A stretch of 6,406 bases of DNA from Chloroflexota bacterium (GTDB lineage Bacteria; Chloroflexota; UBA6077): NCBI GenBank assembly GCA_021845945.1, contig JAJZRD010000217.1, positions 1 through 6,406 of the forward strand, read 5' to 3'. Under the pieces are notes generated by a model. The model worked only from the letters and a program-made list of their open reading frames with translations. It did not search any database and was not told where the DNA came from. Below, one piece after another: positions 1 through 6,093 of the stretch (positions are counted from its first letter, which is position 1; each line of letters begins with the position of its first letter). The position numbers were made by a program, and so were the translations under genes.

Positions 1-1581
1 GAGAAGCTGCGGGACCAGTTGGGCCGTCTGAGGGCGCGGTTGGCCCTGGCGGCGACCCTGGAACAGATGGGCCAGGGGAGGTCCTCGGAGGAGAAGCTGT
101 CGGGAGCCCTCGGCCAGACCCTGGAGCTGCCGGAGCGCCGGCAGGAGCGAACGCTGGCCCTTCAGCGGGCGGCCGCGATCCTCCTGTGCCGGCGACGGCG
201 GAAGGAAGGGCTGGAGAGGGCACAGCAGGCCCTCGAGGCGGCGGTGGCCACATCGCACCAGCCCCTGATCGACCAGAGCAGGCTCATGGTAGCCGCGGGA
301 GAGATGGTCGGCCTGCGGACCGTGGCGGCCCTGGCCCGCATCCGTCGTCTGAACGACGACTTCAACCGGAGCGACGACCGCAGGTGGCTGTCGGCGGGAC
401 ACCGGCTGCTGGCCCAGGGCTACGGCCAACTGGGGCTGCGCCGGCGGGCGCGCTCGCACCTCCGAAGCTCGCTGGCTCTCGCCGCGGAGCAGTCCTACGC
501 AGGCATGCCCATGGGGCTCCCCTCACGGCGGGAGAGGCTCCTGCTTCTGGCTGTGAGGGGGGGCGTAGCTCACGAGACGGCAGGGGCACTGCTGGGGGTG
601 GACGCGGCCGATGCCCGGAAGTGGCTGGCCCCCCTCCTGCGGCAGAAGGACCCGCAGCTGAGGTCGCGGGCTGAGCAGGCGTTGAAAGGGGTGGAGGCGG
701 GTCTGGGGAAGGTGCCGCCGCCCCGGTTGGCTTGGCCGGGCAGCTCTCCCGAAGGCGCCGAGGCCTTTCCGAAGGTGGCGCTCCACTCCCTGGGGGACTT
801 CCTCGGCTCGACCGGCGGACAGCCCGTGGAGTGGCCTTCCGTGGATGCTCGGACGCTGGCGGCCTACCTGTTGGTGCGACGGACGGCGGCCGTTCCTCGG
901 GACAGGGTCCTGCAGGAGGCATGGCCCGACGAGGATCCGGCCATCGCCAACGTGCGGCTGCACGAAGCCCTCTACCGGGTGCGGGAGGCCCTGGGTCCCG
1001 GGTATCCCGCGGTGGACCCGTCGCTGGATGGCGAGGGGGTGTACCGCTGGGATGGGATGGGCTGCTCCATCGACGCAGAGCAGTTCCGGGATGCGCTGAG
1101 GAGGGTGCGGCTGCTGCTGGAGCGCGAGAACCCTCCGGTACTGTCCGCCCAGGTGGTCTCGCTGCTGGAGGAGGCGGTGCGACTGTACCAGGGCGAGTTC
1201 CTGGCCGGCTTCGCCTTCGGGTGGTGCGAGGCCCCCAGGGAGGATCTGCGGAAGCTTCTCCTGTGGACCACCCGCCTGCTGGTCGACCATTACATGGCGC
1301 TTCACCGCTGGCGGGACGCCATTCGCCACGGGCTCAAGTCGCTGAAGAGCGATCCTCTCCAGGAGGACGTTGTGCGGGATCTGATGGTGTGCTACTTCCG
1401 GGTGGGCCAGCGGGGCGCCGTGGATCACCGGTACCGGGAGCTCAAGAGACTGTTGGCCCGGGAGAGGGGCGTCTGGCCCTCCGAGGAGACCCGCGGGCTG
1501 CGCTTGAAGCTGCTGGGCAACGGCGCCGGTTGGGCCCGGGGTGAGTCGATGCCGCCCTCGGTCCTGGTGGTGGGGAAGTAG
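1..1581 (+). CDS. SARP/BTAD-family transcriptional regulator, 3' part
   Basis: The frame is open from the first base to a TAG, so the start lies upstream; 526 codons are visible. Numbering from base 1, residues 1-230 are Arg/Leu/Ala-rich helical sequence that looks like degenerate TPR repeats. Residues about 256-350 fit an OmpR/SARP-type winged helix: LHSLGDF, then ARTLAAYLLVRR, WPDED and LHEALYRVREALG. Residues about 355-505 fit a bacterial transcriptional activator domain, from DAEQFRDAL through LYQGEFLAGF to the C-terminal LLARERGVWPSEETRG. In this family the winged helix binds DNA and BTAD mediates oligomerisation. Many relatives carry an AAA/STAND ATPase further N-terminal, which would be outside the window. 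The target genes cannot be told. It converges on citrate synthase with only 32 bp between the stops, and its stop codon lies inside a palindrome. Confidence 0.85.
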   Translation, partial: EKLRDQLGRLRARLALAATLEQMGQGRSSEEKLSGALGQTLELPERRQERTLALQRAAAILLCRRRRKEGLERAQQALEAAVATSHQPLIDQSRLMVAAGEMVGLRTVAALARIRRLNDDFNRSDDRRWLSAGHRLLAQGYGQLGLRRRARSHLRSSLALAAEQSYAGMPMGLPSRRERLLLLAVRGGVAHETAGALLGVDAADARKWLAPLLRQKDPQLRSRAEQALKGVEAGLGKVPPPRLAWPGSSPEGAEAFPKVALHSLGDFLGSTGGQPVEWPSVDARTLAAYLLVRRTAAVPRDRVLQEAWPDEDPAIANVRLHEALYRVREALGPGYPAVDPSLDGEGVYRWDGMGCSIDAEQFRDALRRVRLLLERENPPVLSAQVVSLLEEAVRLYQGEFLAGFAFGWCEAPREDLRKLLLWTTRLLVDHYMALHRWRDAIRHGLKSLKSDPLQEDVVRDLMVCYFRVGQRGAVDHRYRELKRLLARERGVWPSEETRGLRLKLLGNGAGWARGESMPPSVLVVGK

Positions 1582-3124: not shown

Positions 3125-3316
3125 ATGGACGTGGATGCGGCGGCCTTCGTGCTGGATCGGGTGGACCTGGCCCGCGAAGCTCTCACCGAGGCCCAACAGA
3201 TCGTAGGGAAGTTCTCTCAACCGGAGGACGAGGAAATCGCGCGCATGCTGCAGGAGATGCTGGAGAAGGCCGAGCGGCTGGACGCCAGGGTGCGCGGCGC
3301 CTCCTACCCGGCGTAA
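3125..3316 (+). CDS. Small helical protein of unknown function (63 aa)
   Basis: I do not recognise a family. The product begins MDVDAAAFVLDRVDLAREAL and ends GASYPA. It is rich in Ala, Glu, Arg and Leu, has no Cys or Trp, and shows no signal peptide or membrane segment. Residues 10-29 and 36-57 look like two amphipathic helices joined by a short SQPEDE linker, so a helical hairpin or a coiled coil is plausible. The ATG is supported by GGGAG (3114-3118) 6 nt upstream; the frame stays open further upstream but that part looks non-coding. It stands alone, divergent from citrate synthase and convergent with csbD. That it is a real gene is an inference from the ribosome site and the charged, helix-compatible composition. 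Confidence 0.6.
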   Translation: MDVDAAAFVLDRVDLAREALTEAQQIVGKFSQPEDEEIARMLQEMLEKAERLDARVRGASYPA

Positions 3317-3443: not shown

Positions 3444-3629
3444 TCAGGAAGCCTTCTTGATCTTCTCCTGGGCCTTCCCCTTCATCTGCTGGCCCTTCCC
3501 CTTGGTCTCCTGAACCTTGCCCTTGGCCCGCTGCTCCTCGCTGCCGGTGACCTCGCCCATCTTCTGGCGGGCCTTGCCCATCATCTCGTGGGACTTGCCC
3601 TTGGCCTGCTCCTGCTTTCCGCTCGCCAT
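3444..3629 (-). CDS. CsbD-family stress protein
   Basis: The 61-residue product is extremely hydrophilic, Lys/Gln/Glu/Gly-rich, and built on repeated GK-x-x-E/Q units. Residues about 17-55 (GKARQKMGEVTGSEEQ, then AKGKVQETKGKGQQMKGK) match the CsbD pattern: a G-K motif, a short turn with TGSEE, and another G-K helix. CsbD proteins accumulate in general stress responses, for example under sigma-B in Bacillus, and are probably cytoplasmic; their biochemical role is unknown. The length is normal for the family. The ATG at 3627-3629 has a GAGAGG ribosome site about 9 nt upstream. It lies 101 bp downstream of the rhodanese gene on the same strand, so co-transcription is possible. The stop is TGA, which here acts as a true stop because the protein ends where the family ends. 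Confidence 0.88.
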   Translation of the reverse strand: MASGKQEQAKGKSHEMMGKARQKMGEVTGSEEQRAKGKVQETKGKGQQMKGKAQEKIKKAS

Positions 3630-3730: not shown

Positions 3731-4093
3731 CTACGCCGCTTCGGCCGCCTCGCCGCTCTCGGCGGGGAAGCCCGCCGCCCGCCAGCCGTTGAAGCCGCCT
3801 GCTATCACGCCGACCCTGGTGTACCCCGCCTGAATCATGTTCAGCGCCGCCCGGGCGCTGGACCCCTCACCGGGTCAGGTTCAATAGAGAAGGACGTCCC
3901 TGTCCCGGGGCAGCTGGAAGTACTCTTCGGGCGGCCCGGAGACGGGGATGTCCAGGGCACCGGGAATGTGGGCCTCGCGATACTCATCGCTACTGCGGAC
4001 GTCCACGAAGATCGCGGTACCTCGGTCGAGGCTCTTCTTCGCCTCCTCCAGGGGAGTGCGGTGCACCTGGTCGGTGCTCCTAGGCGCAGCCAT
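3731..4093 (-). CDS. Rhodanese-like protein with two in-frame TGA codons, candidate selenoprotein
   Basis: Read through the TGAs, this is a complete 120-residue single-domain rhodanese ending at TAG (3731-3733). Residues 27-50 carry the N-terminal signature (IFVDVRSSDEYREAHIPGAL), and 81-110 carry RAAL, AGYTRVGVIAGGFNGW and RAAGFP. The active-site loop follows the strand DVLLY (66-70) and reads TGA-Thr-TGA-PGEGSSAR (71-81). Relatives I recall have Y-C-T-C-P here, so residue 71 is the expected catalytic Cys and 73 the second Cys. Rhodaneses carry sulfur as a persulfide on that Cys; Sec could serve in sulfur/selenium transfer or redox work. The sequence after the TGAs is as well preserved as that before, with no frameshift, which argues against decay. 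The ATG has AAGGGGG (4101-4107) 7 nt upstream. If the TGAs act as stops, the product is a 70-residue fragment lacking the active site. Confidence 0.8.
3842..3860 (-). promoter_or_regulatory. Candidate bacterial SECIS hairpin
   Basis: On the minus strand CAGCGCC pairs perfectly with GGCGCTG (7 bp) around the loop CGGGC, whose second base is G. After an A-C mismatch two further pairs (T-A, G-C) can extend the stem. The loop starts 27 nt after the first TGA and 21 nt after the second. Bacterial SECIS models, as I recall them, ask for a stem-loop with the apical loop about 16-37 nt after the UGA and a G among the first two loop bases; both hold. A smaller hairpin (CTGACCC with GGGTCCAG, one bulge, loop GGTGAG) overlaps the second TGA. 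GC-rich coding DNA forms hairpins easily, so this is supportive rather than decisive. Confidence 0.5.
3875..3883 (-). other. TGA-ACC-TGA recoding site in the rhodanese active-site loop
   Basis: The first TGA is at 3881-3883 and the second at 3875-3877, separated by one Thr codon (minus strand). Both are one third-base change from a Cys codon (TGC/TGT) and both occupy Cys positions of the Y-C-T-C-P type loop. Two chance nonsense changes limited to these two codons in an otherwise intact gene would be a strong coincidence. Assignment to Sec rather than to Cys by a suppressor tRNA is inference. Confidence 0.7.
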
Positions 4094-4305
4094 GGACGAA
4101 CCCCCTTCAGAATGCTGGCCGTACCTCTCTGGTCCGGTCCGCGCGGAGGGGGCAATCGCCGTGCCAGTGGGCGAGGGCGTCGCACGAGGTGGCTGTCGCG
4201 GCGCTCCTATGGGCGCGAACGGGTTCAGCCCTGGGAAGGGCCTCCCACGGTTTCGAGCTCGGTCACCTCGCCGGGAATCGTGGCCCGGACCGGGAGCGGG
4301 CGGCC
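4094..4305. other. Divergent intergenic region, rhodanese gene to pyr promoter
   Basis: No gene is supported in these 212 bp. Apart from the rhodanese ribosome site (4101-4107) I could not find a convincing minus-strand promoter. GCCCT-GGGA-AGGGC can form a small tetraloop hairpin near 4229-4242, of no evident role. Confidence 0.4.
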
Positions 4306-4334
4306 TTGAAAGAGATGGCCTCTTCTGGTATAGT
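4306..4334 (+). promoter_or_regulatory. Sigma-70 promoter of the pyr operon
   Basis: TTGAAA (4306-4311) and TATAGT (4329-4334) each match the consensus in five of six positions and are separated by the ideal 17 nt. The start would be near 4341, giving a leader of about 155 nt before pyrR that contains the whole PyrR attenuator. A small CCCC-GTC-GGGG hairpin (4352-4362) would lie near the 5' end of the transcript. Confidence 0.85.
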
Positions 4335-4373
4335 AACTCCAGCGAAGGTTCCCCCGTCGGGGATGGCTCCGCA

Positions 4374-5022
<649 letters not shown>

Positions 5023-5037
5023 GAAAGGAGGCCAGCG

Positions 5038-6093
5038 ATGGCAGAGACCGTTCTGGACGGCCGTACCAAAAGTGATGTCGCCCCCGGGCGTCCGGCTGCT
5101 GGACCCGAGGTGGAGCCCTTCCGGCGGCGCCACGTGCTCGACCTGGACGACTTCTCTCCAGGGGAGATCCGCCGGGTCCTGGACACCGCGGACATCATGA
5201 AGGAGATCCTCCTCCGCCCCATCAAGAAGGTTCCGACCCTGCGGGGCAAGACGGTGGTCACCCTCTTCTACGAGGCCAGCACCCGGACCCGCGTCTCTTT
5301 CGAGGTGGCGGCCAAGAATCTGGGCGCCGACACCGTCAGCGTAGCGGCCAGTGCCAGCAGCGTGACCAAGGGCGAGTCGCTGGTCGACACCCTCTGCACC
5401 CTCCAGGCCCTGGGTGCCGATGCGGTGGTGATCCGCCATTCCTACTCGGGGGCCCCCTATCTGGCGGCCAGGGTCATCAGGGGATCGGTGATCAACGCCG
5501 GGGACGGCTGGCACGCTCATCCCACCCAGGGGTTGCTGGACGCCTACACCGTCCGCAGCAAGCTGGGCGACCTGGCGGGGCGGCGGGTGGTGATCCTGGG
5601 CGACATCCTCCACAGTCGGGTCGCTCGATCGGCCATCTGGTCGATGACGAAGCTGGGGGCCGAGGTCACCGTCTGCGGGCCGGCGACGCTGCTGCCCTCC
5701 TGGTGGGTGCAGACCGCGGCCCAGAACGACGGGGCTGTGATGCCGGGGCTGAAGCTGTCCACCGACCTGGACCGGACCATCGAGGGGGCCGACGTGGTGA
5801 TGGCGCTGCGGCTGCAACTGGAGCGGATGCAGGCGGGATTGCTGCCCAGCACGCGGGAGTACGTCCGGATGTATCAGCTCAACGCGGAGCGGCTGGCACG
5901 GGCCAACCCAAACGCCGTGGTGATGCACCCCGGCCCCATGAACGAGGGTATAGAGATCGCCCCCGACGTGGCCCACGGCATCCAGTCGGTGGTGGAGGAG
6001 CAGGTGGCCAATGGCGTGGCGATCCGGATGGCGCTGCTGTACCTGCTGATCGGCCCCAACGTCAACCTTCCGGTCGAGGTGGAGAAGCGATGA
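5038..6093 (+). CDS. pyrB: Aspartate carbamoyltransferase catalytic chain
   Basis: Joins carbamoyl phosphate and aspartate to N-carbamoyl-aspartate, the committed step of pyrimidine synthesis. The 351-residue product has the carbamoyl-phosphate loop [10 protein letters not shown] (80-89), the SSVTKGES loop (107-114) that closes over the active site, HPTQGLLD (161-168), [11 protein letters not shown] (188-198), the aspartate-binding ALRLQLERM (256-264) and [11 protein letters not shown] (297-307). The last usually reads N-R-G where this has N-E-G. The start has AAAGGAGG 6 nt upstream. About 28 residues precede the first family-conserved segment ([12 protein letters not shown]), rich in Pro, Ala and Gly and probably disordered, which accounts for a length above the usual 305-315. 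No pyrI regulatory chain is seen next to it. The stop overlaps the pyrC start as ATGA. Confidence 0.97.

Follow-up and report, generated by a model that had tools for sequence, protein, structure and literature searches.

The stretch of DNA described here, positions 1 to 6,406 of contig JAJZRD010000217.1 from a Chloroflexota bacterium (assembly GCA_021845945.1; the whole 6,406 nucleotides are referred to below as the window), carries on its minus strand a short rhodanese-like gene whose frame contains two TGA codons, one codon apart. Both are predicted to encode selenocysteine (Sec, U), and a hairpin of the bacterial selenocysteine insertion sequence (SECIS) type follows them. In what follows, UxU denotes genes with TGA at both columns of the active-site loop, CxU those with Cys at the first column and TGA at the second, and C-x-C those with Cys at both. 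The features of the gene are as follows.

3731..4093, minus strand: predicted rhodanese-like selenoprotein gene, with ATG at 4093, 120 residues, TAG at 3733-3731 and predicted U71 and U73.
3881..3883, minus strand: first in-frame TGA (UGA1), codon 71, in the column of the 3tp9_A cysteine (VYCRTGG) and of the first Cys of C-x-C and CxU relatives.
3875..3877, minus strand: second in-frame TGA (UGA2), codon 73, the Sec codon common to CxU rhodaneses.
3842..3860, minus strand: predicted bacterial SECIS hairpin, with a 7-base-pair stem and a 5-nucleotide loop, CGGGC (3853-3849), that has G at loop position 2.
4101..4107, minus strand: putative ribosome-binding-site-like purine run, 7 nucleotides 5′ of the ATG, seen by eye.

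The original prediction, made from the letters of the window, described a frame with only two internal stops, both TGA and one codon apart, and left its strand unstated. Translation of the minus strand confirms the coordinates and the two stops, which fall at codons 71 and 73 of the 120-codon frame within the motif Y-U-T-U-P. The second half of the domain is intact as far as the TAG, as had been claimed, with SSARAAL, GGFNGW and RAAGFP in frame 3′ of both TGAs. With Cys placed at both TGAs, the read-through protein (P0002) matches the Pfam Rhodanese family (PF00581) over residues 16–106 with 69.2 bits, against a gathering cut-off of 22.2, and this match spans both TGAs. An AlphaFold2 model of the read-through protein has a rhodanese fold, with a mean predicted local distance difference test score (pLDDT) of 85.8, and its top Foldseek match is 3nhv (E 2.8e-9). 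Sequence alignment places residue 71 on the cysteine of the 3tp9 loop VYCRTGG, which we take to be the catalytic cysteine.

The homologue set comprises 134 proteins, 14 from a first search and the best 120 of 379 from a wider one. A simple motif rule divides them into C-x-C (71), proteins that end before the first Cys column (15), proteins that end at Cys-x (3) and others (45), where the protein-end classes are read from the protein sequences alone, without the following codon. The set is not fully independent, since some of its proteins come from the very genes described below as DNA loci, P0070 for instance being 100% identical to L144. Cys occupies both columns in P0009, P0013, P0049 and others. 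P0004 (96% identical), P0005, P0006 and P0008 all stop at the residue just ahead of codon 71, which is the 70-residue product that automatic annotation had been predicted to give; P0007 ends one residue earlier, and P0064, placed among the others on account of its length, likewise stops short of the first Cys column. The last residues of P0010, P0012 and P0014 are Y-C-T, the ending expected of an annotated Cys-x-TGA gene. The placement of the two TGAs at active-site cysteine positions is borne out by homologues in which Cys or TGA occupies both columns. P0003 is full length (121 residues, 73% identical) and has C-A-S at the active-site columns, Cys at 71 and Ser at 73, a pattern that would fit a catalytic first position and a helping second one. 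Trp or Arg is seen at the second column of P0018, P0025, P0029, P0035 and P0020 (YCSWP, YCTWP, YCTWF, YCTRP). P0060 and P0069 are entered in the database as hypothetical proteins from a Chloroflexi bacterium.

The double TGA recurs in related genomes. PyrB, encoded elsewhere in the window, is closest to PyrB of genome G478 (78% identity, the best in a phylum sample of 201), and G478 itself carries Y-U-T-U-P. A search of 29 genomes of the class of G478 found UxU also in G513, G582, G534 and, as U-A-U, G492. When 400 genomes were scanned phylum-wide for the pattern, six had a TGA-x-TGA match (these five and G610), against none of the 400 for a reversed control pattern. All six fall in the class of G478, which is the only one where UxU was seen, within the limits of the sampling and of the exact pattern. 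A scan of viral contigs found no relative, and a phylum sample of 400, searched with the 70-position model A3, had no match at E up to 1e-17.

Cys-x-TGA is found at the same place in 32 further distinct loci: 27 from the class of genome G001, L001 and L003 (Chloroflexi), L002 (an Acidobacteria record), and L124 and L149 (class of G478). From the G001 class 30 loci were taken, all CxU, of which L094, L095 and L099 were removed as duplicates; the 30 are the best matches among many, 248 of 396 genomes having a match at E ≤ 1e-8. The motif rule demanded TGA at column 2 and Cys or TGA at column 1, and the second-column TGA in 38 of 38 sequences is thus by construction. C-x-C genes were sought in the fetched loci as a codon-usage control, and the motif rule found none.

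The tree groups L144, L145, L152 and L169 in a single supported clade, and places the window in a different clade with P0003, P0004 and P0006–P0008, where P0003 adjoins P0006 (99/87). The placement of L123 and L143 is not resolved, and the tree does not settle the number of UxU origins; a count of changes on it, which compared the UxU rows with four truncated rows only, is given no weight here. Pairs among L144, L145 and L152 show an excess of third-position changes 3′ of the TGAs.

Immediately 3′ of the second TGA, the codons for S-A-R-A-A are close to fixed across 38 sequences (AGC in 36, GCC in 36, CGT in 32, GCG in 34 and GCG in 32), despite the many codons that these amino acids allow, and together they form the stem of the hairpin. 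The stem usually has 5 base pairs, or 7 in the case of the window and L123, and closes a loop of 5 nucleotides. In the 38-sequence alignment 85.1% of cells are paired and changes on both sides are seen at five of six pairs; five measures were compared with 500 shuffles, none of which equalled the hairpin on a single one, and the hairpin also lies above all six slides. The outermost pair (28-44) is weak, being unpaired in 29 of 38, which leaves a firm stem of 5 base pairs. A covariance model, R1, trained on the 32 CxU loci alone, matches the window at 3874-3839 (32.2 bits, E 4.5e-7) and also detects the hairpins of all six UxU relatives. The minimum-energy fold includes the hairpin in five of six UxU genes, and shuffles fold as well as the native 51 nucleotides in 5 of 200 cases for the window and 12 of 200 for L123.

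The loop begins 21 nucleotides from UGA2 and 27 nucleotides from UGA1. The available text of a 2026 review places the SECIS of bacterial Sec insertion directly downstream of the UGA, and models it as a stem of 4–16 base pairs, a loop of 3–9 nucleotides with a G among its first two positions, and a UGA-to-loop range of 16–37 nucleotides (PMC13188914). The window hairpin agrees with this model in stem, loop, G and distance, the model's free-energy criterion lying outside this comparison. A second SECIS, for UGA1, was considered in the form of a GACCC/GGGTC stem that overlaps UGA2, and was rejected, its loop being merely 9 nucleotides after UGA1. This stem occurs in the window and, more weakly, at the same place in L123, and is absent from the other four folded genes.

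The original prediction suggested a search of the genome for selA, selB, selC and selD, and we carried this out on the genomes of the UxU relatives. SelA and SelD are each over their cut-off in six of six genomes; SelB over its cut-off and a tRNA-Sec with anticodon UCA are each found in four of the five genomes tested (G610 was outside this set). The counts admit a match only if it exceeds the family cut-off, and a tRNA only if ARAGORN confirmed it, because with E allowed up to 0.001 the searches for Rfam, SelB and SelD match all 14 control genomes (5, 2 and 2 of them over cut-off, respectively) and the SelA search matches 4 of 14 (1 over cut-off). SelD is itself a Sec protein, with SHGAG-U-ACK, in the four loci that were read. 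Among CxU genomes, tRNA-Sec is present in G002, G031, G217, G275, G375 and G548, and ARAGORN finds only other tRNAs in the best Rfam matches of G001, G003 and G062. From these relatives we infer that the organism of the window has Sec machinery.

Taken together, the UxU relatives, the hairpin and the Sec machinery of the relatives support the selenoprotein first proposed, and we conclude from these comparisons that the gene very probably encodes a single-domain rhodanese selenoprotein with a double-Sec active site, Sec71-Thr72-Sec73. Several observations weigh against this. The machinery evidence is drawn from genomes of relatives, not from the window's own, and one of these, G513, has no detected tRNA-Sec, its top Rfam match being a Ser tRNA, and only partial SelB-like matches, two of them at contig ends. 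Downstream of the TGAs, clear coding constraint is limited to those three UxU pairs that are closest to each other. Shuffles of the 51-nucleotide stretch fold as well as the native sequence in 75 to 146 of 200 cases for four of the six UxU genes, the hairpin is absent from the minimum-energy fold of L143, and the window has the loop CGGGC, whereas CGTGC is commoner. A terminator-like stem (3906-3891) lies just 5′ of the first TGA (1 found, 0.4 expected). P0002 scores 74.6 bits against NF041203, the family of CxU rhodaneses, under its cut-off of 115.

The alternative that survives best, although improbable, is that only UGA2 encodes Sec, as in the CxU genes, and that UGA1 is a true stop or a selenium-sensing attenuator, the full protein being rare or regulatory. 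The conserved hairpin is indeed the one shared with CxU genes, at the shorter distance from UGA2, serial UGAs should reduce yield, and database entries of 70–71 residues stop before the first column, perhaps as mere products of the gene caller. However, UGA1 is also within the SECIS distance range and sits exactly at the Cys position of other members of the family, and a plain stop at this codon leaves the conserved UGA2, the hairpin and the C-terminal half of the domain hard to explain. It is highly unlikely that a different tRNA reads UGA as Cys or Trp, through reassignment or suppression. This reading could draw on at least five database relatives with W or R at column 2 (for example YCTWPNEE), where the Trp could be a gene caller's translation of TGA. 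Against it, TGA still terminates pyrB and csbD in the window as an ordinary stop, and is thus not reassigned, and the relatives have tRNA-Sec, SelA, SelB and SelD and a SECIS-type hairpin right after the codons. There is very little chance that two nonsense changes, from decay or sequencing error, have struck an ordinary C-x-C rhodanese, as two in-frame stops and the free-standing 70-residue fragment P0004 might suggest, given that TGA occupies the same two codons in all seven sequences (the window and six genomes, which makes sequencing error very unlikely), that the hairpin shows compensatory changes, and that the remainder of the frame is intact, with the third-position excess after the TGAs in the L144/L145/L152 pairs.

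For the double-Sec selenoprotein, a single hairpin probably serves two Sec insertions one codon apart, since conservation is seen for one hairpin, whose distance from each UGA falls in the published range. SelB and Sec-tRNA-Sec would decode both UGAs, guided by the hairpin at 3860-3842: SelB would act at UGA1, the ribosome would advance two codons, and SelB would then act again on the same hairpin. What is generally known of rhodaneses suggests a possible chemistry for the product. Sec71, at the sulfur-accepting cysteine position of rhodaneses, would carry the sulfur in transfer in the form of a selenenyl-sulfide, and Sec73 would be the resolving partner that frees the sulfur and forms a diselenide, which the cell's reductants would reopen.

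The surroundings of the gene in the window include the following features.

3444..3629, minus strand: CsbD-like gene, downstream on the same strand as the rhodanese gene (PF05532, 41.9 bits against a cut-off of 40), with a TGA stop.
3125-3316, plus strand: open frame of 63 residues between citrate synthase and csbD, with no Pfam match.
4306-4334: sigma-70-like promoter match, accompanying the PyrR-binding-site-like attenuator.
4370-4473, plus strand: attenuator resembling a PyrR binding site, upstream of pyrR (47.2 bits; the Rfam cut-off, at 54, is higher).
4498..6093, plus strand: pyrR and pyrB, divergent from the rhodanese gene; the pyrB stop is TGA.

In three genomes, G582, G534 and G492, the UxU gene lies between genes for an AAA/M41 (FtsH-like) protease and a universal stress protein, all on the same strand (the loci are L145, L181 and L182); G534 has an extra frame of 345 residues between protease and rhodanese, with no Pfam match at E up to 1e-10. 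The examined neighbours of the UxU gene in G478 and G513 differ from this arrangement. The protease and stress-protein neighbours, together with the CsbD-like gene of the window, offer hints of a possible stress or redox role for the UxU rhodanese.

Other rhodanese-like frames with TGA were seen in the same material. G582 has a second rhodanese (L150, about 841-1233, minus strand) with one TGA and the motif Y-U-N-M-Q, and L146 of G534 has Y-C-M-M-R in a similar motif; these two are likely to be another Sec/Cys pair, judging by their motifs. Elsewhere TGA ends other loops, as CIGKT-U in L148/L151 (G471) and CWDFQ-U in L023 (G004), frames that are possible further Sec forms of rhodanese.

The original prediction spoke of rhodanese-like selenoproteins as already reported, and this is so: the single-Sec CxU form is the named family NF041203 (rhodanese_LYCAU), of which UxU is a variant. 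The two have the same domain and the same second Sec column, and the CxU genes gathered here have the downstream SECIS-type hairpin in common with the UxU genes; they differ at the first column, which is Cys in NF041203 and Sec (UGA) in the UxU gene. In the parts of the 2026 review available to us, a table gives five rhodanese selenoprotein forms, including CxU as form 3, and none is UxU (PMC13188914). Another rhodanese-type protein with two Sec, TsoB (NF045694, rhodanese/DsbD fusion-like), is also described there, but its model is a 572-position fusion with the spacing UxxxxU, unlike the single-domain UxU gene, and P0002 scores 31.2 bits against it, under the cut-off of 805. Prx-like UxxU, FmdB family UxxU and MbdU also have two Sec, in other families and with other spacing (PMC13188914, in the same parts). 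The string UxU has no match by text search in the available text of PMC13188914, PMC9312934, PMC1088965, PMC2398784 and PMC12013277, and no UxU rhodanese is described in the titles or abstract openings of the literature searched, a scope that does not establish absence from print. What appears to be new here is the double-Sec U-x-U active site, the single-Sec CxU form being known already.

On balance we favour the reading in which one SECIS hairpin guides both Sec insertions, in a family of bacterial rhodaneses that have a Sec-x-Sec site. Several UxU-type genes are stored in databases as entries of 70–71 residues. With two UGAs at two distances from one hairpin, these genes would offer a direct test of the spacing tolerance of SelB and the ribosome, and of repeat insertion on one SECIS. 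If the double-Sec site is real, it would equip a sulfurtransferase fold with an all-selenium centre that uses diselenide and selenenyl-sulfide chemistry, and the family would provide a natural Cys/Cys, Cys/Sec and Sec/Sec series within one small domain, a clean setting in which to ask what the second selenium adds.
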